In this document: piece by piece, positions 840 through 57,100 of the stretch
How positions within the stretch are numbered: position 1 is the stretch's first letter
How the letters are laid out: the number at the start of each line of letters is the position of its first letter
Assembly: GCA_964036195.1 (NCBI GenBank)
Contig: OZ038460.1
Location: forward strand, 4,715,504 to 4,779,503
Source: Sphaerolaimus hirsutus
Lineage: Eukaryota > Nematoda > Chromadorea > Monhysterida > Sphaerolaimidae
Direction: 5' to 3'
DNA: 64,000 bases
Notes under the pieces: generated by a model
The model's database searches: none
What the model was told of the DNA's origin: nothing
The model's input: only the letters and a program-made list of their open reading frames with translations
Made by a program: the position numbers and the translations under genes

Positions 840-1839
840 GGTACCTACTTTTTTCATTTGAAAGCAATTTTCACTCTCGAAGATATAACAGATGTCATTT
901 TTAATCATTTGTTCATGATTTCTATAGGAAAATGATGTGATTTCTTCAAGGTTTCTTTATTTTCCCAACAAAAATTGCAATTCGAAATTTCTGAAATACA
1001 TTTCTGTACACGTGTATTTTCTAAAAGTACGCGTACAGGTGAGTACATGTACTTCTTTAAAGTATATGTAAATGTATTCACCCAGTTCTCGAGTATACCG
1101 TGTCGAAATACGGGGGGAGGGGGTATTTCGAGGAAATACGGAATGTATTTTTGAGTAAATGTAAATACATTTTAACAACTGTGCAGTAGTGCCACATTTG
1201 TGGCTGGCGGCTTTGCTATATTCCAGGGGCGGCAGCACGTGTGGCGCCGCGGCGGCACGTTGTGAATTGATGGCACCCCTGTTGTTGTGCGCTGCCACTG
1301 TGCTCTGTTTGGGTTGTTCTGTCTGGGCTTTAATAACAATTTTTGTGTGTGGCATTGAAAGGTTTCAGATTTGGCAAGGTTCCAGCGCTTTGTTGTTGGT
1401 TTTTCTTGGCGCCAGTTTGTTCGTCCATAATTTGTATGCATTTGATGTATTTACGTATCTATCGGCGCGCCTCACACTTGTCATGTGCTTTTTGAATATT
1501 CTAAAAATATTTATTTCTCGTTAAAATTCCTAAAATCGCCCCATTCCTACATTTTTCTCTCGAAAACTCGCCTCGAAATATTACATAGGTAGATGCTGTT
1601 TTCAGTCCGCTCACAATAATTTGATGTCGTATTGTGGGCGACAAGCAATTGGCATGTAAATTGAATCACGGGTAATCACAAAATCCCCCTGTTTTTGCAC
1701 AACGTTCCAGAGGTACGTCGCGTTGTGACAATTTATTTTTTATTGCCGTCCAAGTCCAGTTTTGTACGCATGCGCCGCCGCCGCGGCAGGACTGCAGTTG
1801 CAGTTGCGCCGCTGCGGCGGCACATGCTGCCAGGACCTG

Positions 1840-2168
1840 GTGCCAGTCCCAGACCCTGTAAAATGTCATGTATCAAGTAAAAGACCTTGTAAAATGTCAT
1901 ATAAAATACCCTGAAAATTGTCATGTGTATCCATATCTTTATCTATTGTATCCAATTCTTATGTTTTGTATCCAAATATTATGTGCAAACGTAAGGTTTG
2001 GATACAAAAACATAAGATCTGGATGCTGTAAAATAATATTTGGATACACATGACACTTTGCAGGGTGTTTTACATGACATTTTACACTGTCTTTTACATG
2101 ACTTTTGTCACTTTGCATGACACATGACATTTTACAGGGTCATTTACAGCGTCTCGGACTGCCCCCAG
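1840..2168 (+). repeat. Introner-family palindromic element, long form
   Basis: The left end is CTG|GTGCCAGTCCCAGACC and the right end GGACTGCCCCCAG|G. These are the termini found at the ends of PEPCK intron 5. The interior is a broad palindrome of TGTAAAATGTCATG-type words. A central subrepeat (GTGTATCCAAAT...) is shared with the copy at 34272-34528. If transcribed on the + strand the termini read as donor GTGCCA and acceptor CCCCCAG. I cannot show that it interrupts an exon here; it could lie in 5' non-coding sequence of the tensin gene. Confidence 0.7.
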
Positions 2169-2658
2169 GAGAGTAGGAAACATATTTTACTGTGGTTCCT
2201 GAGGCAACCAATTGAAATCAAGTTGTCTGAAGGTCGGAGTTTGCCAAATTACGGTTAAAATTCATGGCGGGATTGACAAACAGATGTTGGGAAAGGGTTT
2301 AAAAAAAGAAGATATTTTCTGAAAAACTAAATGTAAATAAAAGACTATTCATTGGGAAATGAGGGTTGTATTTTCTTCACTATACCTGCTTTGATGGGAA
2401 GTTGAGTTGCGACACCGAACTATTACCGCAATTATTTTAGAACACTGCAGCAGAATTTTCAAAAACTATTTTTTTTAATATTAAATTCTCAAACACCATG
2501 CATTTCTCCCGCAATCCTCACGCATATTTCTCTTTACAAATCAAAACCGCGTGCGCCCGTTAGATGTTATTATATCTCATTACAATGTGTTTGTGTAACC
2601 GCCTGAAATATCTAGTGCCGGTTTGAGGTTGAAAAGTGTGAAATTATTTCGACAAAAA

Positions 2659-5600
2659 ATGAGTGATGCTGCAAAAATGGAACTTATTCTGGTTGAAGCT
2701 GCAGGGGGCGGGTATCGATTTCCGATTGACACGGATTGTAAGTTATTTCGGAGTGTTTGTTATTTGTGTTGGATAGTGATGTGAAGCTACCGTGGCGATT
2801 TGGAGTATTGCGTATTTTATTCTGTCAGCGCTGAGCTTTGTTCTATGCCTAGCTGAATGGTGCCAAAACCAATTTGGGGCTGACACCTATTTAGGTGCTA
2901 TTTACATGGTTATCCATGACCGCATACTAGCTGATTCTGATATAGTGGTGTCAAAAGCGCCAAGACTTGCTGCGCGATGGATGCGCTTTTGCTTATAATA
3001 TATACCGTATTTCCTCGAAATACCCCCCCCCCCAGATTGAGTGTAAAGAGAACGTACATGACAAATACTGCAGTTTGTGTTCTGCGTAGTGCAGAACACA
3101 CGTTAAAACAATGTCGGAATCACGTGAGAGCAGTGTTTATACCATCTACGTACTAATATTAGTATACAGGGGTCTAAACATGTCAGTTATTGATGCATTT
3201 TTCTACCCCAGCGCACATCACAAACAACGATTTTGTACTAGGATTTCAAAAAATTTCTGGCGAAATAATACCCCCCCCTCGAAATACCCCCCCCCCCCTC
3301 TCGGGAGCACTATGAAACAACCACCCCCCGGGGGGTATATAAATTGAATATAATCGCAGAAAATCTCTCAAAACAAAACATTAATAAATCTCTCTGAAAA
3401 TGCGAGAAAATATAAATAAATAGAAGATTTTTAATATTTTCTGATATTTTCGAAAATGTAAATCCCCGAGTTTTCCAACGCTAGGTAATTGTGCTTTGCT
3501 TCTTAGCTCATTAAAACAATAACCACTGCATTTTGTAAGGTTCCCAGACATTTTTTTGCATCGAAATAGGTATGCATTCGCTGTATTGTCTAGGCATTTA
3601 AAGGGGGGAAATTTCACCTTTCAGACTATTTAACTGATCGTCGAGTTGTATACAGTCTCAGTTATTGGCAATAAAACGCGTGTTTACGTTTCTCTGCGTA
3701 AATACAACTGAATGCAATGCAAACTAAAATGGTGATTCATTCAATGTGTATACTTTTCTTTCATTGTTCAGTGTGGCTGTTTACTTACAGTCGCTTTGAT
3801 ATTGCTCTGTAGTCTGCCGCATATTTTCTTATCTTTTGCGTTCATTTGTCAGTGTGATAAGCCTAGCGAAACTGCAGATTTTATATGATTAGTATTTATG
3901 TGATTAAGTGAAGTTATTCTGCTTGCATAATTATCTACATGTTGAAAATCACAGCGATGAATCGGTGATTGAAGTTACAAAGTTAACTTCAAGTGAGAAG
4001 AAAAGTTGCAAGTAACAAAAGTTTTTTAAATTAATTATACCTGCGTGTGAATTTCCAACTCTTCTTGCACATTGAATCCTTTCCAATATCATTTCACCCA
4101 GAGTCGACTTTCACCACCCCAAAATTTTCTCCAAAAATCCCTCCCCCTTCCAGGGGACATGGACACCCTAAGCAGCACATCGGCAGTATTCCTCAAGGAC
4201 ACCTCCCGCTACTGGTACAAGCCGCAGATCAGCCGCGACGATGCAATAACGGCCCTGAAGGACAAACCGGCGGGGTCTTTCGTGGTGCGCGACTCGAATA
4301 GCTTCCCGGGCGCGTACGGGCTGGCGCTCAAGGTGGACAGATTGCCGCAGGGCGTGCAGGTCAAGTCGAGTGAGTGGGTTTTTTGAAGTTTTTTTGTTGG
4401 ATGGGTTGTCGCTAGTTGCTAAAAATACGTATGTATTCATGCGAAAAGTGGTCAATTGATGTGGCAAGTCAAATGGCAGTGTCAAATTTGTAACGATGGC
4501 AAACCGTTTGGAAAAAGTGTTGATTTTTTTGTTCTAAAATGGCTTTTAGAATGTTCGGATGTTTCCCAGATATTAATTTACCATTAGATTTTGGCATGTA
4601 TTTCACTGATCAACATTGAATGTATCTTTGTTTTTCGGCCTCCAAGCTGCTGCCGCTTGCCGGGGGCGCATTTGCACCTTTTTGTTTTTCCTGGCGATTC
4701 AAAATGCACATGGAAAATAGGGTAATTTGCCCTTTTTGGTAATATCTGAGGCTAATTACGAAGCTTTTCAGGCGACAAATTTCAGGTGTTACGTAAATTG
4801 ACTACTCAATAACACCGCACACACTATTTGACATCGATACAAAATTTCAACTGGTTCCGTTCCTAATTCCAAGCTTGCATTTGAACGGCGTTCATTGGCT
4901 CGTCTGCAAGCTTCAATTGGGATCGGAACCAGTTGAAATTTGGTGTCGATGTCAACTAGGGTGTGTGGGCCCATTGCGTCAGTCAGAAGTATTTGGACTT
5001 TATGTTCACTCGGTAAATACACACAAGTTTCTCCTCACGTGCAAGCACACTGTGCATAATTACATGGGACAGAGCTAGCCTCTGAAAAATCCCAACCCGA
5101 CATCTCGCAACACCTCCCATCAGCATCAGTGAGTCGCCACGCACACACTCAAATACTCCCCCCCCCCCAGACGACGGCACGGAACTAGTGCGGCACTTCC
5201 TGATCGAGCCCACAGCCAAGGGGGTCAAGCTGAAGGGGTGCAACAACGAGCCCGTCTTCCCCAGTCTGGCCGCGCTCGTCTACCAGCACACGATCACCCA
5301 GTTGGCGCTGCCCTGCAAGCTCTTGGTGCCCGACAGCGACCCGGTGCAGTCGCTGGAGCATGGGTCCGCTGCCCAGGCGCTTTTGGAGCAGGGCGCTGGT
5401 GGGTGGGGAGGGTTTTTGTGTGTAGATTGAATTATTTTTGAGGTATTTTTTGGCTACCTCCTAGTAGGTATATTCCCCAATTTGTCAAGTAAAGTGACAA
5501 GTAAACATGTAAGTGGTGTGCTAAGTGACAAGTATTCTAATTTACATGTTTACTTGTCACTTGGGTTATTAGACTATTTACATAAGGAATATATATATAC

Positions 5601-7366
5601 ACATATTTGCACCTCGTTGCTAAATCCGCGACAGAGATTTCTCTGAAACAAAACTTAATTTGAAATGTCCTCACGATATTCGTCGTGAAAATTTGTGAAA
5701 AGCAGCGTAATCACATAAAACCCCTCAACTCAATCCAAATACCCCCCCCCCCCCAGCCTGCAACGTGACCTACATCGGTTCAGTGGACTGCGAGTCTCTC
5801 ACCGGGCCCGAAGCAGTACGCAGGGCCGTCGGGCACGCTTTCAACATGTTCCACGAGCAGGGCGACGCCGTGCCCGTCACCAGCACCCACTTCAAAGTGT
5901 CCGCCGCGGGGGTCACTTTGACGGATAATCAGAGGAGAGCCTTCTTTAGACGACACTATGCTACTAATCTAGTCACTCATTGCGGATTGGATCCTGAAGA
6001 TAGGAGGTTGGGGGTTGGGTGGCTTTTTTCCTATTTTTGGGGTGATTGTGATGACTTTCGGGCGTAAATTTAGATAGACTTTGGACTTTTTTGCTGGCTC
6101 ACCACTTCTGGCTTTCCAATGACAATGTTGATTACCTACATCAAATGGCTGTGTAAAATGTTGTGGGTAAACAGTATTTCCACTGTGAAAATTACAGGTT
6201 ACTTGCAACTTGTGAATAATTCATATAAATTCTGTTTTCGTCCCGGTGAATTTTGCGAACCACTGATTTTACTTAAAACATCGTCTACACAAATTAAATT
6301 ACCTAATATACCGATCTAGAAATGCCAAGAAAAGAGCTGGTGCCAGCCCCGCAAAATGAGAAGTGAAATGGCAAAGGCGAAGTAAAAGCGCAAAGGCGAA
6401 GTGAAATGGCAAAAGCGAAGAGTATTAAATTACCGTATTACCTCGAATTATCCCCCCTTGAATCAACCCCCCCATCGAATTAACCCCCTCTCAAAATGGG
6501 CTGGGGAAATAATACCCCCCCTCGAAATACCCCCCCCCCTTCGGAATGATGTACGTCATGTACATAATAAATACGTCATGTACGCAATGTACATGATGTA
6601 TATTACTGTTAATTTGCATTGCAGCTACACATAGAGTAGTTTGTGTAGCTATCTACGTTTTTAAGTCCAAATATATCCTGTTTGGACACATTTATTACCT
6701 ATTTTGGGTACGCAAATGCCTACATTTTACTAAGATCCTTACGAAAATTTCTGACGAAATAATAAACCCCCCCTCGAATTAACCCCCCCCTCAAATTTTG
6801 CTGGCGAAATAATTAACCCCCATGGGGGTATTTCGAGGTAATACGGTAGGTACTTTTTTTTTTACTTCGCTTTTGCCAATTCACTTACCGTTTCACTTCG
6901 CCTTTGCCATTTCACTTCTCATTTTGCGGAACTGGCTCCTGGAAGACTGGTGTCACTCCTCTACCTTGTAAAATGTCAAATTATCTTTTTTACTTGACGT
7001 TTTACATTTCTGATGACGTTCTACATCACTTTTGACACTTCATGATATTTTACATCGTCTGAAAGTCATACCACTCATCAAAACCCCTCACCACCCCACC
7101 ATACCCTCACCCTCAATCTACCCCCCCCCCCCCCCAGATGGACAGTACCCGCCGCATCAGCCACCAACAGCCCAGTAGTGTGCGAAGCTCGTCTATTCGG
7201 CTTCGTCGCCCGCAAGCCCGGCGTCAACTCGGGCAACGCGTGCCACGTGTTCGCAGAGTTGGAGCCCGAACAGCCGGCAACTGCGATCGTCAACTTCGTG
7301 ACCAAGGTGCTGTTGACGGGCGGGGTCAATGGACATCAGATGCAGCGTAATGGCGCCGCGGCGTGA
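2659..7366 (+). CDS. TNS: Tensin-family SH2-PTB adaptor protein
   Basis: Five coding exons join in frame: 2659-2737, 4154-4369, 5171-5398, 5757-6006, 7138-7366, stop TGA at 7364. Intron phases are 1,1,1,2; the product is 333 residues. Exons 2-3 encode an SH2 domain (about residues 46-155) with the phosphotyrosine-binding Arg in FVVRDS (R72) and the tensin signature [12 protein letters not shown]. Exons 3-5 encode the C-terminal PTB domain (about 176-322; [32 protein letters not shown]). Tensins link integrin tails and phosphotyrosine proteins to actin at focal adhesions. I see no PTEN-like or actin-binding region, so this is a short, cten-like form, or an isoform whose longer 5' exons lie outside the window. 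The start exon (from ATG 2659, perfect GTAAGT donor, matching phase 1) is inferred from frame and splice site. The 3' exon is followed by a MITE at 7407. Introns hold several transposon copies. Confidence 0.9.
3003..3342. repeat. TACCGTATTTCC-family element in tensin intron 1
   Basis: It starts TACCGTATTTCCTCGAAATA and closes in CCCCGGGGGGTATATA after C-homopolymer tracts. The interior (GAGTGTAAAGAGAACGTACA..., ACTAATATTAGTA) is shared almost word for word with the copies at 48028-48735 and, inverted, 54056-54506. It encodes no protein. It is the uninterrupted version of the 48028 copy and so serves as the empty-site reference for the nested insertion there. Confidence 0.7.
4811..4972. repeat. 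Harbinger-related MITE in tensin intron 2
   Basis: Inverted termini: left ACACCGCACACACTATTTGACATCGATAC, right (reverse strand) GGGCCCACACACCCTAGTTG. The arms continue as an inverted repeat (AAATTTCAACTGGTTCCG on both sides). The GGGCCCACACAC..TAGTTGACA end is the same as that of the Harbinger element at 17218-20755. A clean target duplication is not visible. Confidence 0.65.
5475..5572. repeat. AAGTGACAAGT hairpin element in tensin intron 3
   Basis: The word AAGTGACAAGTAAACATGTAA is mirrored by TTACATGTTTACTTGTCACTT about 40 bases on, giving a long hairpin. Looser relatives occur at about 47310-47395, 45380-45510 and 50690-50815. It is a small inverted-repeat family of unknown class. Confidence 0.55.
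6341..6941. repeat. GGTGCCAGYYCCGCAAAATGAG element with nested insertion
   Basis: The left end (GGTGCCAGCCCCGCAAAATG) and right end (CATTTTGCGGAACTGGCTCC) are inverted repeats, followed inward by AGAAGTGAAATGGCAAAGG. An intact relative is at 49692-49913. This copy is split by a TACCGTATTACC-type element at 6431-6848, so two insertion events are stacked in tensin intron 4. Its terminal GGTGCCA resembles the donor-side end of the introner family, but here both ends match each other. Confidence 0.6.
6431..6848. repeat. TACCGTATTACC-family element nested in 6341-6941
   Basis: It begins TACCGTATTACCTCGAATTA and ends GAGGTAATACGGTA, with C- and G-rich subterminal tracts. The interior (GTAGCTATCTACGTTTTTAA and a TACGTCATGTAC repeat at 6550-6600) is partly shared with 17850-18060, in reverse orientation, inside the Harbinger element. 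Confidence 0.65.
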
Positions 7367-22911: not shown

Positions 22912-25900
22912 GTGAAAGGAGGTTGAGGTTTTGTGTTGTTGGGTGGTTGTGTTGTGAATATTGTTTTTTTTTGTGTTGTTTTGTTGTGGGCGTTTTTATA
23001 CTCGGCTGACCGCAAATTTTGAAAAGTATTGAGAAATGTGTTCAGGATCCTACCGTAATTAAATGAATAAAATTTTGGGATAAATTTTGTAAGTTTTTTT
23101 CCATAAAAAACGGAATATTATGATGAAAAGACGGTATTAGTAGGGTTCCACACTGAGTGTGATGTCCGCCGAGTATAGATAGTTTGTTTTTATTTTTGTG
23201 TTGTTTTTGTTTAGTAAGAAATTCAACTTGAACCAAGCAGGGACGTAGTCAGGATTTTTGAGCGGGGGGCGGATTGTATACGAAGCCCGGCGAACGCCCC
23301 CCCCCCTAAAATTTTGTATATGTCTGTATTTTACAGGCAGAAACAGCGACATCGACAAATATTGAGTGTTTTTACGGGCGTTAAAGCTCAGCCAAATATA
23401 TCTGTTGCGTGAGAGGAAAATGCGCGCTTGCGCGCTAAATTTTTCCAAACTGGGGCAAAATCGTCTTCTGGAAGTGCCATATCTGGCAAGTTTTTTGGTC
23501 CGGCCCGGGAAGGGGGGGCGGCCGCCCCCCCCTGACTACGCCCGTGGAACCAAGGCGCCGGCGCGTGAAATTGTACGCGTAAAATGTACTTTTGTGTTGG
23601 TGTCGTCTGACGTTCAAATTGAGTTTTTTGTTTAGTGCTATCCCTGCATGCATGCTTCACTGCAACTTTCTGGTGTATGTAAAAAAAGTGTTTTTGAAAA
23701 TTTGCATACGCAAAGTTCACTGATGAGTGATGACGGTTTTCAAACGAAAAATTGTTTCACAGCCTACTTATAAAATGTTCTTTTTGCATATGCATCACAT
23801 TCACACTCTAATGAGAGTATTTCGAACTTTCAAATGAGAGTATTGTATTGTACTTTTGTATTTCTCTGTCTGTATAGTAACCTCCAAAATCCCGCCGCGT
23901 CTGCCTAGGCTACAACGATAAGCCACAATGTCGCAACCTTCGGTTTGCCTGAGCGAGATGCCGCAAGGCTCGTACTACGTTGTCAATGAAGTTGTCACCA
24001 AGCGACTTGGCCACTTGCCAATTGCCAAGGTCGGTTTTTGTAGATGTTTAGTGGTTTTTGAGGGCGGTTTGGTTCCGTGTTAAGTGACTTTTTTGGAGTG
24101 GTTGATTTTAGAGAAAATTTTGCAGATTCCAGTACAATCAATGTCTAAATAAAGTAAGAATAAAAGTAGAAAATGGGAGGCCAGGACACTTCTCATACTG
24201 GCCACTTTATATACTGTCAAAAACGACACTTCTTGGTGGAAAGTCTGATTGTTGTCGTCACAGAAAAAACATGTGACCAGCGCGTAACAGTTATTATCGA
24301 GGGATATGGTAATTTAGCTGTTTGTCATGCCCATTTTTACATTTGTTTTATACATTTTGGCGGTGTTAGTTTGATATGTAGTTGTAACAGTATCAATTTT
24401 GTGTTCGTGCATGTATTATTGACGGATCAGTATTTACACGTCACAAATTAAAAATGACAAAAACCTCAAAAAATCCCCCCAGGGCGACTTCCACGAGCTG
24501 CCGCCCAAAGCGCAACGTTTCATCGCCGAAAAGGCGGAGCTTCTGCGGCCGCGCGGCATCTACATCTGCGATGGGTCGCACCACGAGGCTGAAGAGATCA
24601 CGCACAAGCTGATTGAGCGCGGATCCATGTCCCCGCTCAAGAAGCTGGACAATTGGTGAGTGTTGATGACACGTACTCTTGTCAACTGAATACTCATTCC
24701 GGTGAACTCAAATGCGTTCAAAGCTGAATTATCAGTTTCCAAGGTTTTGAGTGTAAAGTAGTGTGCACGCGCTTTGTTGTTGTATATTATGGGACATTTA
24801 TATATCGAAAAAAAGTCAGAAAATATCAGTTATTTATGATTTAATTGTTGCAGGATTTGCCAAATATATAGCTATAATTTTTTTTGTTGAGATTTAGCGA
24901 AGTGTCGAAAAAATTACATTGCATTTATTTTAACTTTTAGGGATTTTTCCAACAAAAACATTAATTCCTTTTTGAGAGGTTTTTCGACACCATATATATT
25001 ATATATTCTCAAAATCACCATTTCCACAAAATCACATAAATTATCAGTGCCAATTCGTAAATCGTAAATTCAAATTCTTGGCACTCTTCCAATTTCGCAC
25101 CCCTTTCTCAGCTACATCGTCCGCACGGACCCCCGCGATGTGGCCCGCGTGGAGAGCAAAACGTGGATTGTCACCCCCGAGCGGCACCAAACCGTGACGC
25201 ACACCCCGCCGGGTGTGGACCCCGAAATGGGACATTGGATGGCCCCCGATCAGTTTTGCAAGGAACTCGATTCTAGGTTCCCTGGATGCATGGCTGGTTT
25301 GTTTTTTGTTTTGTGCGTGTTCTTGGAGGGTGTAGTGGCCACTCCCAGACCCTGTAAATTGTCAAATGTCATGGAAAATGTTATGCAAAGTGTCAAACGT
25401 GACTTCGAAAATGTCAAATATCATGCAGAGTGTCAAACGTGTCCTGCAAATGTGAAATTTCATTTTGATTTTTGACTGGACTTTTGACATTTTTCATGAT
25501 ATTTTAATGACTTGACAATTTGCTACCGGGAATTTTGCAGAGTTTGAAAGTGGCATCTTATCTGCTGGCAGGGGTTTCCTGCTTTTTCAGCTTATTTTTA
25601 CGCTTTTTGTAGATGTGTCTTGTAGTCGTCTCTAAACCCCCCCCCCCCACCATATGGTTTGAGTAGAAAAGCACGAGAGGAAAAACGTTGAAAAACCGCG
25701 TTTTCGCAACCGATCCGTATTAATGTGGGATCAGCAAAGCCGAGTGTTGGGTGGTTTGATTTTATCTTAAAATTTAACGACCATAATTTTCAATGGACGG
25801 CTAATTTTTGATCTTTCAACCGCAAGAACGCGGAACTTTGCGAGCAATAAACTTTTTTATCTACAGCTTAGCATAGCATAGCATATGCCCTGTATAGCTT

Positions 25901-28900
25901 ATGCCATCTTTTTGGGTTTCGACACTTTAAAGTGTCTTTCAAGTGTCTTCACTATGGTAGTGTTTGCTTTGTAGTGTTTGTCAAGAGCTACTTACGGCCT
26001 AAAGTTTCAGCGCAGGTATCAATTTCCTGAAACTGTGCAGCAGTGAGCCCTGTGTACACAATATTTAGGAGCTAAGCCCGGGGCAGATAGATAGATACAG
26101 GGTGTTTCATTTTAATTGAGTACACAGGATAGTACATAAATATTTTATTTAGTGTGTTGCCGGGCGCATTTGATCTGAGAAATGTGTTTTGCGGGGTAGC
26201 AGAATCCCTTCTGTTGTGTTTCTGTCTTTGACGTCTGTTTTGAGGTATAATTTACATTTGCTGTATGACGGCTGTTCGCTTCTGTTTTGAGGTGATTCCG
26301 GAACTTTTTCCCGTCATCAGATAGCTGAATAATTCCCTCAGATGTGTACATCTGTTCCCTAAAATGAGTTTTTTTATCGTTCGGTGCAAAGAAAAACGAT
26401 TGTTCGGTTAACGCAAAAAAACGTTCGAAAATTTGCGACAAATCTAGTTCGATCAACGAACGTCAGTTGTTATTTCAATACGCGAACGTCAGTTGTTATT
26501 CCAAAATTCCAAGGTGAAAAAAACGACATACACGCCTAGCGTAGATACCTTTCAATGTTGTTTACTGATTTACAATGTTCCGGGGACGGGGAACCGCGTT
26601 CACACGAGAGACTGTGTACGCATTCTAGAAGCATATGGCGTTTTTATTTATTGGTTATTATCCCCCAAATTAGCTGGTTAAAAAGTTCCTCAATTTGACA
26701 GCCGCAAATGCTTCTAAGATTGAAACCGTTGTTTACGCGCAAAATGCGCAGCTGCTGACGCAGATGTGGAAACACTATAGTGGCTGCGCTGCGCCAATGT
26801 TTTGGCGCTGGCGCCATGGTACTATTTAGTGTCATTTTAAAAAGGAAATTGTCAGATGGTGCACGAATATTGTTTTCACACTGAATTCCTGGAGGTTTTC
26901 CTAAAAAAATTCAACCCAACTATCAATTCATACTTCACCATAAAACCATGGCGCCAAAAAGGCGCCGTTTCAATTTCGCGAACCCTCAAAGCTCTATTTT
27001 CGTCTGGGTTTCGCTGTGGACGCGCGTCAGCGGCAGCGGTTGTCTGACTGCAGTTTTCTGTGCGGGGGGTGTGCTTTGGTATGAATAGAATAGAGCCAAT
27101 TTGTGCGCCGTAAAAGTCCTGAATGTTATCAGTAGACGGGGTTCGGGTGTTTTATATGTATTTTCTGTTTTATCAGCGAATTGCTGCTGAATGTTTGTTT
27201 TAGCTAGCAAGAGACGCCTTGTTGCTAAAATATCGATTTCAGTTGGCTGTATGATATTTCGAACACAATTCCATGTTGCGAACGCTGCGATGTGACCCCT
27301 CACAGATAAAATGTGTCCATGCTAAGCTCGATCCAGATGCCAGACGCATGTGATGCTACGGCGAGATAATCCCTAAATATCCCGTGCACATGCGCTAATT
27401 TGCATGTGCACTGTTGTTGCAGACTGCGGTGCCATGTACGATGCACTGCGTTCCCAGTCGGTGCCGGGTGGCTTTGGGCTGGGTAGACATTTATTGATAA
27501 GGGGTGGTATATGGGGTGGAAATTTGCATTGAATATGTGCAGTGCATGTGTGAAATTGGTCAACGGTTTGACTTTGGGGGCGCACGTTTCCATTTATCAA
27601 AACGCTAAATGTGTGTGTAGGGGACGGTCCAACGTTGAATAAATATGAAAGGAAAACGGCAAAAATTCAGAAGGCACATTTTTGTGACGACTCGACAACA
27701 CTTGAAAAAGTCAAGTAAAAAGTTCCATATCCATTAGAAAAAGTGGTCAAGATCCCACATTTCGAATTGCAGATGAATCGTTCAATTGGTCAAAAAATTT
27801 CAAACGTTACTACTCTTGAGGGACTAGTATCATTCATCTACATTTTGGCGTGCGTATATGCTTAGGTGGATCCTAAACCTGACCACTTTTTCTCATGATA
27901 TGGAACTCTTTATTCGACTTTTTCGTGTCTTCGTAAATGTTGTCGAGTCGTCACATAAAAAACGTGTAAAAGGTCCTAACTTCAACGAGTTGTGGTTTGA
28001 AAACTATGCACAGAATGGGCACACAACATCACAACCTCCCCCAACAACCACCACCTCCCCCAACAACCACCACCTCCCCCAACAACCACCACCTCCCCCA
28101 ACAACCACCACCTCCCCCCCTCGCAGGCCGCATGATGTACGTGATCCCGTTCAGCATGGGCCCCATCGGCTCGCCCCTGTCCAAGATCGGCATCCAGGTG
28201 ACCGACTCCAACTACGTGGTGCTGTGCATGCGCGTCATGACTCGTGTGTCCCACCACGTGTGGGACGCCCTTGGCGAGGACGACTTTGTGCGCTGCATTC
28301 ACTCGGTGGGACTGCCCCGTCCAGTGCTTAGTTGGTTTGGTTTGAGAAGGGTTTTTGGGGTGGTCTGGGAAAAGTGAAGTGAAGTGAAGTGAAAAGCGAA
28401 GTGAAGTGGGAGGTGGAAAGTGAAGTGAAAAGCGAAGTGAAGAGAGGTGGAAAGTGTAATGAAAAGTGAAGTGAGAAGCGGAAAGTGAAATGAAAAGTGA
28501 AGTGAAAAGCGAAGTGAAATGGGAAGTGAAAATAAACAAAAATAAAATAATAATAATAAACGTTGAGAATGAATTCTGAATAAGAAAACATTATTTCTGC
28601 TTTGACTATTTCACTACGCTTTTTGTGGAATTGGCACCTGGATTTGAATGTAAACACCTTCCCGGACAAGTTCACCACCCAATTTTTTCTTTCACTTCGG
28701 ATGTAATATCTCCTTCTATGGGGGTGTTATAAAGCTGAAACTTTGAATATATAAAGTTGTAACACCCCCCTACTCTGCTTCAATGGGGGGGAGGTGGGGC
28801 GACTCACTGCAGGGTGGGTTGCCCTATACGCAACAATTTTTTTGGGTTTTTTGCTGTCCCAAACAAGTTCACCACCCACTTGATTAGCTACACTCCGAGG

Positions 28901-31900
28901 GTCGTATCTGCAGCTGTGAGGCTGGTATGACGCTGTAATTTGGGGGATGTCTTGCCAAAAAAAACCCTTACGATACACCAGTGGGGCTGCCTGCCAGCGA
29001 CCCACTACAGTATCCATTGCTGCATGTACAGTTGTTCATTTTTTGAAAACAACCCAAGCGTTCCAAACAAGTTTGCCATCAAACTGCATTATAAAAAATG
29101 TTGTGAGAACATACCTGGTATAAAATTGAGTCAGATTTGAACCCTAATTCTGCTCATTAAGAATTTTCAGCAGGGCACCCACCCTGTCCCATAAACAGCA
29201 GTCCGAAAATTTCACTTTAAACCAATTTTTTGTTTCACACTTAAAAAGTTGGTTTACAAAGTTCATTAGGGAAGGGTCCAATGTTCAAAGTTACGTATAC
29301 AACATGACTTCTAAAATGCCTTCATAAGGAAATTTATTTGTGGTGAAAATTATGGTGTCATAATGACATCATCACAGGAACAAAATTTGACAAAATTTCC
29401 ATTTTTTCATTCACCCCAAATAAATTTCCTTATGCAGGCATTTTAGAGGTTATGTTGTTTACATAACTTTGAACCTTCAACCCTTCCCTAGTGAACTTTG
29501 TAAACCAACTTTTTAAGTGTGAAACAACAAATTGGTTTAAAGTGAAAATTTCAGTCTACTGTTTATGGGACGGGGTGGGTGCCCTACTGAAAAAATTTTA
29601 ATGAGCAGAACTAGGGTTCAAATTTTATTCAATTTTATATCAGGTACATTCTCACAACATTTTTTATAATGCGGACGGATGGCAAACTTGTTTGGGAGAC
29701 TTAGGTTGTCTTAAAAAAATTAACAACTTTATATGCGGCGACCCATGCTGTGGTGGGTCGTCGGCGGCCACCCACTGATGTATTGTGAGAGGGGGTTGTT
29801 TGCAAGACATCCCCCAAATTTCAGCTTTCTATCGCCCACACAGCTGGAGATATAGCCTTCGTAGTGTAGCCAATCAAGTGAGTGGTGAACTTGTTTGGGA
29901 CACCGAAAAAGCCAAAAAATGTTTGCATGTAGGGCGACCCACTCTGTAGTGAGTCGCCGCACCTCCCCCCAATAATACGGAGTAGCGGAGTGTTAGGACT
30001 ATATACCTACCAACCAAATATTAGCTTTATACGGTTCCCATAGCCAGAGATATTGCATCTGAAGTGAAATAAAAAAATGGGTGGTGAACTTGTCCGGGAA
30101 GGTGTTTACTATGGCAATGTTTATTTTTTTATGCAGACGGGGTATGGTAGATATCTTTGTATAGGCGATGCACACACTAATTTACCGCCAGTAAACTAAA
30201 AATAGGGTAAACTAAACAATTGGGTAAACTGAATTTTGGATGGCATTTGAGTTTACGGACATTGGGTGCTCGTAGGGTTCAAACGGGATCGGTATTGTTT
30301 GTTTTTTAGTTTTCGAAATCCGGACTGCCAAACCACGAAATGTTCAGGGATGCGGTATCGAGATCTCGTTTCTACCCTGGTGCTCGTCAACTACAGTTGA
30401 CGTAAAGTAAAAGTAACTCATTCCAGTAAACTCAATTGCGTCAAAAAGCTGATTTACGAGTTAACCAACTTTTTAAAAATTTCATCGACCAACTAGTGTG
30501 CCACCAACACTTCACAATCTCCAACTGGCCCAACTCACAACCCCCCCCCCCCCAAGACATACACCCCCAAACATACACCCCCCAACACACAACCCCCCGC
30601 CCGTCTCAGCCAAGGTGGTCAACCACTGGCCGTGCAACCCGGAGCGCGTGATGATCGCCCACCGGCCGGCCGAGCGCGAGATCTGGTCGTTCGGCTCCGG
30701 CTACGGCGGCAACTCGCTGCTCGGCAAGAAGTGCTTCGCGCTGCGCATCGCCTCGGTGATCGCCCGCGACGAGGGCTGGTGCCAATCTCAGACCCTGTAA
30801 AACGCACTGGAATATGTCAAATGTCACGCAAAGTGTCAAATGTCATGGAAAATGCCCTGCAAAATGGCAACCGAGTTGCCATTTTGCAGGGCATTTTACA
30901 TGACTTTTGACACTTTGCACGACATTCGACATTTTACAGGGCGTTTTGCAGAGTCTGGGACTGCCCCCCAGGATGGCCGAGCACATGCTCATCACCGGCG
31001 TGACCCACTCCAAGGGCACTGAGCATTTCATGGCTGCCGCTTTCCCGTCCGCGTGCGGAAAGACCAATTTGGCTATGATTAAGCCCGGACTGGCCGATTT
31101 CCGCGTCCGCTGCGTTGGTAGGTTGACCATTGAGGCATTCGTTTCGTTTTAATGGGTGGAATGGGAGGAATGTCTTTAAAAACTCAGATAAAAAGTAAAT
31201 ATAAATGAGATTTTTTACATATAAAATAAATCATTCGATCTATGGATAAAAAAAACCCGAAGAAAATATAAATGAGTATAAGATTTTATTTTATATTAAA
31301 AAATACATTACTCTCCCGATATTTTTGAACCGCAGTCACATCCAAGACCCATTTTCAACCTAACCACAACCTCCAAACCTACAAAACCTCCACAACCTAC
31401 CCCCCCCCCCCCACCACCAGGCGACGACATCGCGTGGATGCGCTTCGACAAGTCCGGCACGCTGCGCGGCATCAACCCGGAAGCGGGACTTTTTGGTGTC
31501 GCGCCAGGCACCAACCTGAAGACCAACCCCAACGCGATGGCCACGTTCCAGCGCAATTCCATCTTCACCAACGTGGCTGAAACTGCCGATGGAATGTACT
31601 TTTGGGAGGGACTGGAGGATGAGATGGAGAACCCCGTTTGTGAGGGGTTTAGAAGTGGGGGTTGGGGTCTAACCCATCCCTGGAAGGCTCACCAAATCGG
31701 GCTGTCTGGAACGATTTTCGGGATTTGCCCCAATTTTCGCTCACAATCTCTTGTTCGCTCACAATATCGTGCGCTGATTTTCATTTATTCTTGCCATTTT
31801 TGCCTTCAAAATCCTAGTTCATGTGCCTTATTGCCTATTTTCAGCTATTGAAAAACAGCTACAAATATGCATTTGTGATTTGGGGGGGGGGGGTAACCTC

Positions 31901-34738
31901 CCCTTTCCTACCCCTGGTTGACATAATGCATTCATGCATCAAGTTGATTCCAAGTTTTCCGAGGAAAAAATTACCCCCTCCTACTCTAATATCCCCCCTC
32001 AATAACTCCCCTGCGGTCTAATTCGATGACATACGGTGATAATTTAATCCCCGCGATGCCATACCTAATACATACAATACAGTACCCTACCACCCCGCAG
32101 AAAGTGGAGATCACCACGTGGCTGAACCAAACCGGCTGGCACGTGGGCGACCCCGGCAAAGCGGCGCACCCCAACTCTCGCTTCACCACGCCCGCCAGTC
32201 AGTGCCCCATCATCCACCCCCTGTGGGAGGACAGCGATGGTGTCCCAATTGAGGCGATCATTTTCGGTGGACGCCGCCCCAAGGGTGTCCCATTGATTTA
32301 CGAGGCGTTTAGGTGAGGTTTTTTTTTGGGGGGGGGGGGTTTGGAGGGGTTTATTGAATGTCATTTGAGATGTGTGATTTTTGATGTTTTTATTTTATTT
32401 TTTGAATTGAGTTTTAAACGCTGTCGAGTGCCTTTGTTGTAAGGACGTGTCTAGGGGCTGCACCACAAATTTACATTATTGGCGATTGCATGGCGCCAGT
32501 GCCAGCGCCATAGCGCTATTTCTGTACTGTGGGAAAACATTTTTGTGGCTTTTGCCGGGATCCCTGTACAAAGGGCCTGTGCCTCTGTGCATGTTTACCC
32601 GCTGTGCATGTCGGGGGTATTCTAGATTTAGACCCTCCAGGGGATTGGATAGATAGCTAATCGCTCTTTTGGAAGGATAGATAGCTGGAAAAAATTTAGG
32701 GGGGTTGGGGGTTCAATATATATGCTTTTTCATGATGTAGAAAAACGGTCAAAAAACCGCAAAAAGTAGGTGAAAAATACTAAAAATGGGTATATAAGCA
32801 GATATACTACAAAAAAAAGCTGAAAATAGACAAAAAAAACGCATGAACTAGTGATTTTGAAGGTGAAAAATCTTTAAAAAGGTATGGAAATTAGTGATTT
32901 TGAGTGAAAATAAGGGTCAACATGCACACCGGGTAAACATGCACAGAAGGCCTCAGTCCTGTACAAATCACCTCCCCTGAAAGAAGTTCTGGATACGTCC
33001 CTTACATTGAATAGAGTGTTACACCATTTTATCTGGCTAAAAGAAAACCTAAACAAATACCGTATATCCTCGAATATGACCACAGGGAGGTTATTTTGAC
33101 AGTGTAGCATTCCGCAAAAAAGCCCATTCCGCATTTTTGCCCATCCCGCAAATTATGTGACCCATCCCGCAAGTTGCATCACCTGTTTGCGGAATGGGCA
33201 CATTTGCGGGATGGGTCACATAATTTGCGGGATGGGCAAAAATGCGGAATGGGCTTTTTTGCGGAATGGGCCCTTGCCGTTATTTTTTCGTCAGAAGTTT
33301 AGGAGGGAGTTATTCAACGGGGGTCTTATTCAAGGAAATACAGTAATCCAAATAAAAGTCACCCATTTTAAATAACGCCTCACTCCTCCCAACATCCCAG
33401 CTGGGCGCACGGCGTGTTCGTGGGCGCGTGCCTGAAATCTGAGGCGACCGCGGCCGCCGAGCAAACCGTCGGCCAGGTGATGCACGACGCGTTCGCCATG
33501 CGCCCCTTCATGGGCTACAACTTCGGCAACTACATGCAGCACTGGCTCGACATGAACCAGACCGGACGCAAGGTGGGTTGTTTTTTTTTGTGAATTTGGC
33601 AGTGTTCCAAATGTGTGATGGATGAGCGGCGGGTCGCGGCGCTTTTCGAGATTCCAGGAAAAACCATTTGGCACCCTCAAGGCGCCAATAAATTGCTTAC
33701 TTCAACTGGTGCATTAAAACTACTGTATTTTCACGATATACCCCTACCCTCGAAACACCGCCCTCAAAATCAACACTCTGAAAAATGAACTGCCTCGAAA
33801 AAAGCCTCCCTCGATTAACCCACCCCTATCAAAATCAGCACTCTGAAAAATAAACCCCCTCGATTAACCCACCCCCCTCAAAATTTGGTGGAGTAAACCC
33901 CCCTGGAGCTATTTCGAGGAAATACGGTATCCACAACAATCACCCAACGACCCCCCCCCCCCTTAAAACCAGATGCCGCGCATCTACCACGTGAACTGGT
34001 TCCGTCTGGACAAAGCCGGTCACTTCCTGTGGCCGGGATTCGGCGAGAACATCCGCGTACTCGACTGGATCATCAGACGCGTCGAGGGCGACGAGAGCAT
34101 CGGCGTCAAATCGCCGCTTGGCATCCTGCCAACTAAGGGCTCGCTGGACCTGTCCGGCCTGGGCGACATCAAGTGGGACGAGCTGTTCAACTTGCCCAAG
34201 GAGTATTACATGGAGGACATGAAGGAGCAGCGCAAGTGGTTCGAGGCGCAGGTGAGCCGGTTTTTTATTTGCTGCAGTGGGCAGTTCCAGACCCTGAAGA
34301 TGTAAAAGTCCCTGTAAAATGTAAAAAGTCATAAAAGACCATGTAAAGTGTCATGTGTATCCAAATCATTCTATAGTATCCAAATCTTATGTTTTTGTAT
34401 CCAAATGTTATTTCCAGATCTTCAAATCAAATAAGATTTGGACACAAAAACTATTTGGATTTGGATATTATTGAATAAGATTTGGATACACATCATACAT
34501 AAGCTCTTAAAGGGCCTAGGACTGGCACCAGATTGATCTACTGAGATGATGTGCTCATTTAAGGTTGCTTTTACGGATGGATTTTTAACCTTTTTTAAAA
34601 AACATCGTTTTTTGAAAACGGAGTAGTAGACAACAATATCATTTCATGCATTTATTCACTCCGCAGGTCGGTCCCGACATGCCGGCGCCAATCCGCGCGG
34701 AACTGGACGCCTACGAGCAGCGCATCAAGGACATGTAA
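22819..34738 (+). CDS. PEPCK: Phosphoenolpyruvate carboxykinase (GTP)
   Basis: Exons: first exon 1a 22819-22911 or 1b 23928-24029, then 24483-24655, 25112-25296, 28127-28330, 30610-30778, 30972-31117, 31421-31635, 32101-32312, 33401-33572, 33973-34251, 34667-34738 (stop TAA). All junctions are GT-AG and in frame; products are 639 (1a) or 642 (1b) residues. The enzyme converts oxaloacetate and GTP to phosphoenolpyruvate, GDP and CO2, the first committed step of gluconeogenesis. Visible landmarks in 1b numbering: [15 protein letters not shown] (249-263), P-loop [12 protein letters not shown] (299-310) with reactive Cys306 and Lys308, metal/kinase-2 DDIAWM (328-333), ASQCPI, lid loop SEATAAAE (482-489), and HVNWFR near the C-terminus. 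No active-site residue appears lost. Intron 5 is a transposon (see 30779-30971). Confidence 0.96.
22999..23175. repeat. TACTCGGCKGACCGCA MITE, short form
   Basis: The left end is TACTCGGCTGACCGCA and the right end TGATGTCCGCCGAGTA, with TA on both borders. The interior contains CGGAATATTATGATGAAAA. A near-identical relative is at 62475-62652. It lies between the two alternative PEPCK first exons. Confidence 0.75.
23238..23546. mobile_element. hAT-type non-autonomous element, TSD GAACCAAG
   Basis: The 309-bp element starts CAGGGACGTAGTCAGG and ends CTGACTACGCCCGTG, between exact 8-bp repeats GAACCAAG (23230-23237, 23547-23554). It contains GAGCGGGGGG and GGGCGGCCGCCCCCC tracts like the 10196 and 14918 copies but lacks their GGCGCC middle. 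It sits between PEPCK exons 1a and 1b. Confidence 0.85.
23928..24029 (+). CDS. PEPCK: PEPCK alternative first exon 1b
   Basis: It encodes 34 residues beginning [20 protein letters not shown] and ending GHLPIAK, phase 0, donor GTCGGT. The ATG context (CACAATGTC) is reasonable. It joins the same exon 2 acceptor at 24483 as exon 1a. Its upstream start would give a second PEPCK promoter within the interval after the hAT element at 23238-23546. Confidence 0.85.
25331..28126. other. PEPCK intron 3 content
   Basis: This is most of a 2.8-kb intron. A degraded introner-family copy (CCACTCCCAGACCCTGTAAA at about 25337, CATGATATTTTAATG further on) lies near the 5' end. A GGCGCC/GGCGCCATGG repeat scrap is at 26790-26965. 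The rest is AT-rich without recognised genes. Immediately before exon 4 a 19-bp unit (CTCCCCCAACAACCACCAC) is repeated about four to five times (28034-28120). Confidence 0.5.
28034..28120 (+). repeat. CTCCCCCAACAACCACCAC minisatellite at the exon 4 acceptor
   Basis: Four to five tandem copies of a 19-bp pyrimidine/A unit end directly in the acceptor tract CCCCCCCTCGCAG of PEPCK exon 4 (28127). The array therefore forms the branch-point and polypyrimidine region of intron 3. Copy-number change would alter the length of that region. Confidence 0.8.
28650..30109. repeat. 1.46-kb foldback element in PEPCK intron 4
   Basis: Both ends read GTAAACACCTTCCCGGACAA (left forward, right reverse). The inverted similarity continues over almost the full arm length. 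Examples are CAAGTTCACCACCCA with TGGGTGGTGAACTTG, GGGGGATGTCTTGC with CAAGACATCCCCC, and AATTTCACTTTAAACCAA with TTGGTTTAAAGTGAAAATT. The arms meet near 29370. It has no coding capacity that I recognise. The superfamily is unknown; no clear target duplication. Confidence 0.75.
30779..30971 (+). mobile_element. Introner-like element forming PEPCK intron 5
   Basis: The 193-bp intron equals one full palindromic element. Its left end, GTGCCAATCTCAGACCCTG, is the donor; its right end, AGTCTGGGACTGCCCCCCAG, is the acceptor. The middle is a hairpin (CCCTGCAAAATGGCAACC / GGTTGCCATTTTGCAGGG-type). Removal joins TG and G into the Trp codon of EGW-MAEHML, phase 2, matching the conserved PEPCK sequence. 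Unlike other introns here, no unrelated sequence flanks the element inside the intron. Siblings occur at 1840, 34272 (reverse), 40995, 55989 and 56842 (reverse). Confidence 0.85.
33058..33345. repeat. TACCGTATATCC element with GCGGAATGGGC hairpin inside
   Basis: Outer ends TACCGTATATCCTCGAATA and CAAGGAAATACAGTA are inverted. Inside, 33110-33272 is a second palindrome built from repeated CCCATTCCGCAA / TTGCGGAATGGGC words of about 20 bp. It lies in PEPCK intron 8. Confidence 0.6.
33721..33930. repeat. TACCGTATTTCC-family element in PEPCK intron 9
   Basis: It starts TACTGTATTTTCACGATATA and ends TTTCGAGGAAATACGGTA. The interior repeats CCTCGATTAACCCACCCC and CAAAATCAGCACTCTGAAAA in tandem, so this copy is largely a short tandem array between the conserved ends. 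Confidence 0.6.
34272..34528 (-). repeat. Introner-family element, reverse orientation, PEPCK intron 10
   Basis: Read on the - strand it starts GTGCCAGTCCTAGGCCC and ends GGTCTGGAACTGCCCACTGCAG. The centre carries the GTGTATCCAAAT palindrome of the 1840 copy. It sits wholly inside intron 10 and antisense to the gene, so here it is only a passenger and does not define the splice sites. Confidence 0.65.
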
Positions 34739-40994: not shown

Positions 40995-41172
40995 GTGTCA
41001 GTCCCACACACTGTAAAATGTCATGGAAACTTCATGTGAAATGTGTTTTAATTTTCCAGTTAAACCCTCCAGTTTTACATGGCATTTTACTTTTTACATG
41101 ACACTCCATTTTTAACATGACACTTTTTTTATTTTACATGACATTTGTTAGGGTGTGGGACTGCCCCTGGAG
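40995..41172 (+). repeat. Introner-family element, intergenic copy
   Basis: The left is CCAG|GTGTCAGTCCCACACACTG and the right GTGTGGGACTGCCCCTGGAG, with arms of GTAAAATGTCATG / CATGACA words. The donor-like left end is intact. The right end has CCCCTGGAG instead of CCCCCAG. No exon is recognised around it. Confidence 0.6.
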
Positions 41173-48735: not shown

Positions 48736-49691
48736 TCAATTTTTATTCAATCGCTCTTACATGCAAGTATGATGAGTGCGCACAATGTGTATTCCCCTGT
48801 ATTGTACTCCCTTGAAAAATTCTATATCTTTATCCTTTCCACATTAATCTACTTTTTTTCAGGTGTAAATCTACTCCAATTAAGTGCAATTTTTTCCCAC
48901 GTGAATACATTTCAATTTCATAACTATCATGATTTATTATCTCCCATTCTGTTCAAGTACCCCTAACAGCTCAAAAAAAATCTCACTCTCATGAACCACC
49001 ATGTACATAAACACATTTCGATCAAGCATAACCAGACATAAGCTGAACTAAAAGCATGATGCCATTAGAGCGTTGAAATCGACGCGAACCCCACGTTTGC
49101 TCGGCTAGACTAAAATAGGTCCTGTGAACCTCGGCGCCTTTTAAATAGGCGTGGAATTGACGCCAAAATTGTTCACTGGGGGGGGGGGTAATGGCGTTTT
49201 GTAAGGTGCCCGTTGGACATCTTGTGCTAGACGTCCTTGAGCATTTTTAGTGGATGATGCAAAGTCTGGGGCCAATTACGCATTGTCTGTGCTGCTTCGT
49301 CAAGTGACAATTGTGAGAAAATGTTTAAAACTTTTCAGTGAAAATTTACGGGGCATCAGTCTTTACAGAGTGGACGGTTGTTGTTAGCGATCGTTGATAG
49401 GTTTGCAGGCTATCTAAAATATATCCTTTGATAGATGCATCCATTTGCAATATGTCTGGCGCAAAGTGCCAAAAACCTCACACCAAATGTGAAAGTGAGT
49501 GACAACGACATTTCCTTCCAAAACCGCCTAGACATTCCCTTCCCATCTCCAATCCGCAGCCTCAGTACACAAGTGAGCTCATGAAATGGCGCGTGCGCTC
49601 AACTGAGGGCCCAATGTCAGCCAGTGGGGCGGCGCGGCGGCTCTTGGTATGTGCCGCTCTATTGCCAGCCCCCCTCCCCCATACAACAGCT

Positions 49692-49913
49692 GGTGCCAGT
49701 TCCGCAAAATGAGAAGTGAGAAGTGAAATGGCAAAGGCGAAGTGAAACGGTAAGTGAATTGGCAAAAGTGAAGTAAAAATAAAAATAAAATGTAAATTCT
49801 CTTCGCTTTTGCCATTTCACTTGCCAATTCACTTGCCATTTCACTTCGCGTTTGCGCTTTTACTTCGCCTTTGCTATTTCACTTCTCACTTCTCATTTTG
49901 CGGAACTGGCACC
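49692..49913. repeat. GGTGCCAGTTCCGC element, intact copy
   Basis: Inverted ends GGTGCCAGTTCCGCAAAATG and CATTTTGCGGAACTGGCACC are followed inward by AGAAGTGAGAAGTGAAATGG and its complement. Both ends are the same, so on either strand the right end reads GGCACC, not an acceptor-like CAG. Relatives: 6341-6941, about 28370-28642 (right end only, GGAATTGGCACC), and about 54597-54833. Confidence 0.75.
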
Positions 49914-50419
49914 TGGTGTATAAGTGCAGCGCAGCGCATGCGTTGCACTGCATGCGCCGTGCCGCGCGGCGACAATGCACACGCGCAATCAAAATGTGAG
50001 CACATGCATTTTTCAATGTGTTTTTTTGTGTGTGTACTGGAGATTTGATGGGGTGCTTAGAGCCCCCGATGTGGCTGCTTATCGATGATGGCTTTTAAGT
50101 GATTAGATGGCGACAATCGAATTGAACATAATGATATTACCTACTCAATTTTGGTCGCTATCGGGGCCGACTTTTTATCTCCACTAAAAGTCACCATTTC
50201 TAATTGATATGCCTAGCCTCAGTACCTTAAAAATAAATAGCACACTCCACTGCGCGAAAGCAAAATATTGCCAGTACACTTACGCAAAACGGATCTGAAA
50301 TGAGTGCATTCTCATCGCAACTATATCAGTGGCCGTAGCTAAATTGCTTTTGAAACACTAGGCGGACATGCGAAAGCTTGTGCAGATATGCACATGCATG
50401 CGCTGCCGCCGTGCCCTGG

Positions 50420-53767: not shown

Positions 53768-55058
53768 CAGAGTTGTACAAATACTGGTATTTTTGGAAAA
53801 CGTAAACGTAAACGTAAATACCTTTTCAAATTTTGGAGTATAAATACTAAAACGTAAGGTATTTTGAAAATACCTGGGAATACGTAAAATAAAACGTAAA
53901 CGTAAAAATCAATATTGTTTGTTGTGCAAAGCACAGAGTTCTTCCACTATCACTGAATAAAAAAGGACATTTTTACAACATTATGTATGTTCCTATGATC
54001 TTCATTGACATCATCTGTTTTTTCCTACATACCTGTATTTTACCTATATTTTATATACCGTATTTCCTCGAAATACCCCCCATGTTTCATAGTGGTCCCG
54101 AGAGGGGGGGGGGTTAAACGAGGGGGGGGGTATTTCGAGGGGGGGGGGGTTATTATTTCACAAGAAATTTTTTGAAAACCAGGTACGAAATTGTCGTCTG
54201 AAACGTACGCAGACGTCGAAAAATGCAACAAAAACCGCCATTTATAAGGTTCTGTAGACTAATATTAGTATGTAGATGGTATGTACACTGTTCTAACGTG
54301 ACACCGACATAGTTTTAACGTGTGTTCTGCAGTACACAGAACACAAACTACAGTTATTGTCATGTACGTTCCCTTTACACTCAATTTGGGGGGGGGGTAT
54401 TTCGAGGGGGGGGGGTGATTGTTTCATAGTGGTCCCGAGAGGGGGGGGGGTCAAACGAGGGGGGGGGGTATTTCGAGGGGGGGGGGTATTTTGAGGAAAT
54501 ACGGTAGATCTATGGGATCGGGATATTGAGTTGGGATATGATCGAAACCGGTTGAGATTTGGCGTCGTTGTCAACTAGTGCGTGTAGGGTCATATGGTGC
54601 CAATTCCCTAAGTGGACAATGGCAAGTTGAATGGCAGATGAAAAGTAAAAAAACAGTATATTTATAAGTGGCAAATGAAATGGCAAGTTAAAGGACACAT
54701 GGCAGGTCACAAGAAGACACTAGTTTTTGACTTTTGACTTCATTTCACTTCTCACTCATAAATTTACATTCCTCTCAAATTTTAACTTATAATTTTTAAA
54801 TTGTTTCGGTTCTCCACTTGCGGAATTGGCACCCTCTCATCATTTAAGCATGATGAACTCATCATAATACACTACATTTGTCAAATAATACAGTTCCGTA
54901 AACTTAATTTTTACGTTTTCTCTGGTACCCGGGTAATTGTGCCAGGAAAACGTAACAAAACGTAACGGTATTTTTGGAAAGCGTAAACGTAAACGTAAGT
55001 ATAAATACCCGAATAACCGGGTATTTCGGGTAAACGTGAATACGTTTTTGCAACTCTG
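53768..55058. mobile_element. hAT-type element with nested insertions, TSD GTGAGTGG
   Basis: It starts CAGAGTTGTACAAATAC and ends GTTTTTGCAACTCTG. It is flanked by exact 8-bp repeats GTGAGTGG (53760-53767, 55059-55066). ACGTAAACGTAAATACC words fill the outer arms. Nested inside are a TACCGTA-family element (54056-54506) and a GGTGCCAATTCC element (about 54597-54833), accounting for most of its 1291 bp. Confidence 0.85.
54056..54506 (-). repeat. TACCGTATTTCC-family element nested in the hAT element
   Basis: It starts TACCGTATTTCCTCGAAATA and ends TTTTGAGGAAATACGGTA. The interior is the reverse complement of the 3003-3342 copy (ACTAATATTAGTA, CATGTACGTTC). Long G runs replace the C runs. It lies inside the element at 53768-55058. 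Confidence 0.75.
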
Positions 55059-55988: not shown

Positions 55989-56149
55989 GTGCCAATCCCA
56001 GACCCTGTAAAATGTCAAATGTCACGCAAAGTGTCAAAAGTCATGTAAAATGCCCTGCAAAATGGCAATTCGGTTGCCATTTTGCAGGGCATTTTACATG
56101 ACTTTTGACACTTTGCGTGACATTTTACAGGGTCTGGGACTGCCCCCAG
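55989..56149 (+). repeat. Introner-family element, cleanest palindrome
   Basis: The 161-bp element starts G|GTGCCAATCCCAGACCCTG and ends AGGGTCTGGGACTGCCCCCAG. Between them is an almost perfect palindrome centred on GGCAATTCGGTTGCC (56065-56080). This copy is closest in sequence to PEPCK intron 5. Flanks are GC-rich but no exon is recognised. Confidence 0.75.
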
Positions 56150-56841: not shown

Positions 56842-57100
56842 CTGGGGGCAGTGCCAGGCACTGTGTAATGTCAAATGTCATGCAAAGTGTAAAAAGTCAT
56901 GTAAAATGCACTGGCAAATGAAGTTTGCCATAAAACAGGGTGTTTTTTGACTTTTGACACTTTTTCATGACATTTAACATTTTACAGGGCATTTTCATTA
57001 CTTTTGACACTTTGCGTGACATTTAACATTTTACAGGGAATTTTACATGGCTTTAGACACTGCATTACATTTGACATTTTACAGGGTCTGGGAGTGGCAC
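56842..57100 (-). repeat. Introner-family element, reverse orientation
   Basis: Read on the - strand the left is CAG|GTGCCACTCCCAGACCC and the right CCTGGCACTGCCCCCAG|G, with consensus-like splice-site bases on both sides. The interior has an extra repeated arm (TGACATTTAACATTTTACAGG twice). Whether any - strand transcript uses it cannot be judged. Confidence 0.65.

Follow-up and report, generated by a model that had tools for sequence, protein, structure and literature searches.

The window, by which we mean the whole 64-kb stretch of DNA that was analysed (C16:4715504-4779503 of the 348.5-Mb host assembly, which was also the genome searched), carries on its forward strand a gene for GTP-dependent PEPCK (25112-34251, +) modelled in eight exons, the ends of the gene and the exon 2/3 junction being approximate. 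The spliced model encodes 523 residues and scores up to 745 bits against PEPCK chains in the PDB; the best-matching PEPCK proteins among the matches listed are 74% identical to it. Upstream of PEPCK, SH2 and PTB exons read by eye from the open reading frames at 4168-6067 may belong to a tensin-like gene. Nested long palindromes lie in the modelled PEPCK introns at 28956-29802 and 33108-33268, with arms of 212, 184 and 65 nt that are 77%, 91% and 100% complementary, respectively.

Intron 5 of PEPCK (30779-30971, 193 bp) consists of a single palindromic element and one 3-bp copy of a CWG target. The upstream exon (30610-30778, +) ends in GAG GGC TG, and the left target copy, CTG at 30776-30778 (+), stays exonic within GGC TGG. 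The palindromic element follows (30779-30968, +), with the donor GTGCCA at its first base and a run of C at its end, and then the right target copy (30969-30971, +), now CAG, which supplies the AG acceptor of the predicted intron; the downstream exon (30972-31117, +) begins with G ATG GCC. The original prediction had the sequence and coordinates right, as direct reading of the DNA confirms. It further held that the element brings its own splice sites, which is borne out for the donor GTGCCA and the C-run and fails for the acceptor AG, as this comes from the right copy of the target. As the last three intron bases duplicate the target, the element measures 190 bp rather than 193, and we rejected the reading of the whole 193 bp as an element that carries both splice sites.

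Excision was predicted to restore EGW-MAEHML, and the joined exons, GAG GGC TG and G ATG GCC, indeed align there without a gap to the top-scoring PEPCK chain in the PDB. The Trp encoded across the junction is conserved in 119 of 119 homologues in which the motif is readable (120 homologues among the matches listed), in agreement with a putative insertion into CTGG. As the insert carries a stop codon in the frame of the upstream exon and its 193 bp are not a multiple of three, an active enzyme needs the insert to be removed. The two arms of the palindrome (30778-30871 and 30875-30968) are 94 nt each and 3 nt apart, and are 85% complementary, compared with up to 97% in other copies; the nearest relative of the PEPCK copy within the sampled copies is 93% identical. 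Set against these figures, the recent gain by an active family that the original prediction proposed is a conjecture. The RNA of the element folds at -118.3 kcal/mol (z = -16.4), a value that none of 200 shuffled sequences equalled.

The five siblings with the same ends that had been predicted elsewhere in the window are roughly right in number, as blastn detects eight clear relatives, four with both ends, one with its ends partly kept and three decayed or partial. Both ends are kept at 1840-2168 (+; CTG left, CAG right; longer than the PEPCK copy), at 40995-41169 (+; CAG left, CTG right), at 55989-56149 (+; CCG left, CAG right), whose inner arms at 56013-56068 and 56074-56129 are 98% complementary, and at 56842-57100 (-; CAG on both sides). 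The relative with partly kept ends lies just 3' of the last modelled PEPCK exon (34275-34528, -), and a decayed one lies in the first modelled PEPCK intron (25297-28126), at approximately 25337-25562 (+). No coding context was recognised at the ends of the window copies other than that of PEPCK. Additional inverted-repeat elements at 6339-6939, 49686-49919, 54579-54850 and 28634 end in GGTGCCA/TGGCACC or close variants and differ in their interiors; the shared termini suggest that related transposases have mobilised more than one family.

In this animal genome the family numbers some two thousand copies or more. Exact 22-nt left ends occur at 2,099 genome sites (980 CTG and 1,119 CAG) and exact 22-nt right ends at 853 CAG and 589 CTG sites, while the reversed end patterns used as controls occur at 0 places in the whole genome. 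A similarity search returned 2,880 first-look candidates, and the 40 that were scored were all 88-100% identical on the better strand. The ends of the element read GTGCCAGTCCCAG.../...CTGGGACTGCCCC. A profile of 53 copies displays a near-constant core, with GTGCC on the left and the C-run on the right, and CWG on either flank inside a looser ACCWGGT consensus; the terminal inverted repeats (TIRs) start with GTGCC at one end and GGGGC at the other. The zebrafish Harbinger transposon has a similar target with an ACCWGGT core.

To pair the two ends of single copies on C1 we used 100 left-CTG, 90 left-CAG, 80 right-CAG and 51 right-CTG places, taking in the listed places up to about 31.0-31.8 Mb. 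The W base was the same at both ends in 31 of the 33 exact-ended copies (p = 1.3e-7), the left/right states being 16 A/A, 15 T/T, 2 T/A and 0 A/T, the pattern typical of a 3-bp CWG target duplication. A duplication of 2 bp (GG) or 1 bp was rejected, since both the match matrix of the 53 copies and the C1 pairs favour CWG. Genome-wide, A accounts for 59.2% of the W bases at the right end and for 53.3% at the left, a modest excess (p = 6.5e-4); in the first sample the share of A at the left end was 43%, a larger gap between the two ends than the genome-wide one.

A 5'-CWG-3' target duplication and a TIR that begins with GGG characterise the NuwaI group of PHIS transposons in the PIF/Harbinger clan, a group reported from animals only, according to the passages on that group (PMC4482050). 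The present family has in common with it the CWG duplication and the animal host, and possibly, given GTGCC at one end and GGGGC at the other, the G-rich start of the TIR; by its sequence features it is a MITE that duplicates its target in the same way as NuwaI/PHIS transposons. It differs in being a MITE that has no coding capacity and no linked autonomous partner or transposase, and in that it would make introns, a property not mentioned for NuwaI in the passages concerned (PMC4482050).

Matches to PF13359 are abundant in the genome, and a flanking pair of TIRs of this family was not seen in 11 PF13359 loci (3.6-4.6 kb), the transposon ends of which are mostly unplaced. The DDE_Tnp_4 loci L099-L106 were rejected as the autonomous partner, as no such pair flanks them, and so were L107 and L108, in which the end, as inferred from the point where both copies diverge, reads CCAATGGCCCC. 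At least 13 short PF13359 matches, including L107 and L108, have an open frame of 257 residues. L107 and L108 are copies of a multi-exon DDE_Tnp_4-type gene (633-4563 and 671-4601, respectively) that are 99.98% identical over 3.9 kb. Their reading frame holds, as an apparent intron, a related palindrome of the CTG/CAG type, CTG-GTGGCA...CCCCCAG-GAC (hyphens mark the borders; L107 3978-4175, minus strand). As a recently spread transposon would need this palindrome to be removed, L107 and L108 may lend support to removal. More than 100 of the DDE_Tnp_4 matches listed, for example L099-L106 (e.g., C47:89409-90041), contain four in-frame TGA codons, possibly reflecting an unrecognised intron, recoding or editing.

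For the analysis of coding context we sampled 98 copies (L001-L098), comprising the best 28 of the 40 scored by similarity to the PEPCK copy and 70 chosen by end pattern; the latter are 70 of the first 72, in genome order, among 327 listed places, the two omitted sharing the cluster of L061. Both ends could be placed in 88 of the 98 copies, and the 10 that have no placeable pair of ends were dropped from the counts, so that 28 of the 88 resolved copies were selected by likeness to the PEPCK copy. The near-duplicates L036/L037, L073/L074 and L003/L006 were tallied separately, L003 alone belonging to the 20 coding copies described below. Removing the element together with the right target copy yielded 202 frames that cross the junction in the 88 copies, 111 in sense and 91 in antisense orientation, of which 50 sense frames (partly picked by eye) and 30 antisense frames were tested singly against Pfam.

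A domain match spans the joined junction in 20 of the 88 resolved copies, PEPCK by its PDB alignment and 19 by Pfam. Thirteen of the Pfam matches exceed the curated cut-off (CAP, innexin, guanylate cyclase, Kir channel, laminin EGF, TIL, Srx GPCR, xanthine/uracil permease, AMP-binding, GT92, PLOD, DNA polymerase B subunit and DOMON) and six fall short of it (PDE, cadherin, RGS, RQC, VWA and Cast). In the sample chosen by pattern only, a domain was crossed in 11 of 60 resolved copies, seven of them above the cut-off. In all 20 domain-crossing copies the GT end lies upstream on the coding strand, and junction-crossing matches were obtained with 19 of 50 sense frames compared with 1 of 30 antisense frames (Fisher p = 4e-4). 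The lone antisense crosser is a kelch match below the cut-off in L019 (C6:14914019-14917209), the coding strand of which also starts with GT (CCG-GTGGCA); as its targets are CCG, the intron would have CG at its 3' border and may represent a GT-CG case. In L043 an antisense frame has a GDT1 match, which does not cross the junction. L003 (C14:1521316) and L006 (C14:4207201) are 98% identical and have the right-hand PDE exon in common, whereas their left flanks differ, a pattern that a rearrangement at the element would leave.

In-frame joining is not in itself proof of splicing, because it is expected after any insertion into an exon. At least one stop codon lies inside the element in the coding frame in all 28 coding-type copies that were read. 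The density of CCWGG in the PEPCK exons is about twice that across the window (3.2 compared with 1.4 per kb), and the presence of the element in exons is therefore partly explicable by the choice of target; the orientation bias is not accounted for in this way, since the target is a palindrome. The proposal that the PEPCK intron is an introner thus finds support in protein conservation, with about two thousand exact-ended copies in the genome and all of the domain-splitting copies having GT upstream at their borders. The ends of the element coincide with those of putative introns in these 20 of 88 resolved copies, the intron borders being deduced from protein domains. If the rate of 11/60 applied to all 2,099 exact left ends, several hundred introns would result, Pfam missing many exons.

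The 5' end reads CWG-GTGCCA in 20 of 20 coding copies, GTGCCA agreeing with the usual donor consensus at the first three bases only. Fourteen of these copies have CAG at the 3' end and six have CTG, and the left/right states are eight CAG/CAG, six CTG/CAG, six CTG/CTG and no CAG/CTG; the 49 other copies with W at both ends comprise 19 A/A, 20 T/T, 5 T/A and 5 A/T. Enrichment of CAG at the right end of coding copies (14/20 compared with 24/49 of these others) is not significant (p = 0.18). The T/A state was found in 6/20 coding copies compared with 2/33 intact C1 copies (p = 0.04, L049 being counted in both), and the p value of its enrichment lies between 0.03 and 0.12 according to which copies are compared. 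As judged from the borders, the predicted donor and the pyrimidine run are part of the element, and the predicted AG is provided by the target duplication when the target is CAG. The Trp codon of PEPCK points to CTG as the original target, and CAG now stands in the right copy; our reading of this CTG/CAG state is an insertion followed by a T to A change under selection for an acceptor. Since CTG and CAG are complementary to each other within the palindrome, it is conceivable that the right copy was corrected using the left one as a template across the hairpin.

Since TG forms the 3' end in six of the 20 (L003, L020, L038, L039, L087 and L090), canonical splicing as drawn here cannot cover all of them. 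The identity of their arms is 72% in L087, 80% in L038, 84% in L039, 90% in L020, 93% in L090 and 97% in L003, and by this measure L087, L038 and L039 look old. Scanning 70 nt upstream and 60 nt downstream of the TG ends for an alternative AG, we found in-frame alternatives that would keep 3 residues in L003 and 6 in L087, and lose 7 or keep 14 in L020; the alternatives of L038 and L039 lose 20 and 11 residues, respectively, or run into a stop, and L090 has no in-frame alternative AG within this range. A CAG is located 18-19 nt upstream of the end in 11 of 12 TG-ending copies, L087 having AAG at 18. The six TG-ending coding copies may be GT-TG introns, users of other AGs, or broken.

Several other accounts of these observations can be given. 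SOS splicing recognises inverted repeats. This pathway is described as removing transposons from mRNA (PMC13247085), and the hairpin may similarly be excised by an SOS-like pathway, independently of the spliceosome, its ends being rejoined by RTCB. The long hairpin of the PEPCK element, with its z of -16.4, agrees with this account, as does the lack of a border AG in the TG-ending coding copies. However, recognition of a hairpin gives no obvious orientation preference, and we would expect an SOS substrate to be excised regardless of orientation and splice signals, yet GT is upstream in 20/20 crossing copies. Moreover, the A/T state, which leaves no AG, is present in 0/20 coding copies and T/A in six. 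We therefore consider an SOS-like excision improbable.

If instead the coding insertions stay unspliced, the genes, or this assembled haplotype of them, would be broken, as the stops within the element (28/28) and the six of 20 coding copies that have no AG where expected could indicate. Yet the conserved domains are kept in the exons on both sides and the orientation is sense in 20/20, and three of the TG copies look old (arms 72-84%), whereas a dead gene is expected to decay; breakage is accordingly quite an unlikely explanation. It could also be argued that the element landed in an older intron, the remainder of which was lost, and that the matching ends are secondary, and another relative does lie in an older PEPCK intron (25337-25562). 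But the 3-bp target copies sit exactly at the exon borders in PEPCK, and the same coincidence of borders recurs in 19 further sampled genes, making such a history very improbable indeed.

We propose, with high confidence, that PEPCK intron 5 arose when a hairpin MITE, a kind of non-autonomous DNA transposon, inserted into the gene, and its membership in a high-copy introner family in an animal is supported by the conserved domains on both sides of its relatives. According to the proposed mechanism, the MITE would insert at a CWG target, duplicating 3 bp, and formation of a hairpin in the transcript would draw both ends of the element together. The major spliceosome would then cut at the first base of the element (CWG-GTGCCA) and where the right target copy stops (NG), taking out the element and one target copy and thereby bringing back the original codons. 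A CAG target would give an immediate GT-AG intron, whereas a CTG target would give an intron ending in TG, the right copy of which would have been changed to CAG in part of the coding copies, including PEPCK. Taken jointly, the proposal that hundreds of new introns arose in this way, GT-AG from CAG and GT-TG from CTG targets, that the spliceosome tolerates TG as the sole or main acceptor, and that TG is turned into AG by a T-to-A substitution in the right copy, for which the complementary left copy may serve as template across the hairpin, is put forward tentatively, and we regard it as possible rather than probable.

Introners were found in 175 of 3,325 genomes and, among animals and land plants, in two groups only, both of them animal, as given in the survey passages of Gozashti et al. 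2022 (PMC9860276), which also describe families in which the 5' site belongs to the element and the 3' site is co-opted, e.g., in Chrysochromulina with a 4-bp target-site duplication (TSD). In common with the introners of these passages, the present family is a short non-autonomous element with TIRs and a TSD, has many copies, and its ends coincide with those of the putative introns with the coding length unaltered. Unlike them, it resides in an animal, duplicates 3 bp (CWG) and is a palindrome over its full length, and the outcome would be set by a CAG or CTG target, with coding copies that end in TG. The titles and abstract openings of the introner literature since 2022, most subscription papers lying outside, contain no animal family with CWG duplications. 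The introners of Amoebophrya, in the passages on their structure (PMC7789003), likewise have inverted repeats that form a hairpin joining the exon ends, non-AG ends and direct repeats of 3-5 nt that overlap the exon/intron border. Their splice sites are highly variable, whereas here the 5' end is GT in 20/20 coding copies and the 3' end would be AG or TG (CG in L019), as set by the target copy. In human U2 introns TG was reported to serve as a 3' splice site in 36 genes, with an AG within 28 nt and never as the sole acceptor (PMC2374985). The CAG 18-19 nt upstream of our TG ends resembles this arrangement, yet these TG ends, if spliced at all, would be by-products of the target site.

The origin of new introns is a question of long standing, and transposons that make introns have rarely been found in animals. 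In this genome, many insertions of one element at targets that differ by one base, CAG or CTG, constitute a natural experiment, and as such may bear on which 3' splice sites work and on how selection refines new introns.
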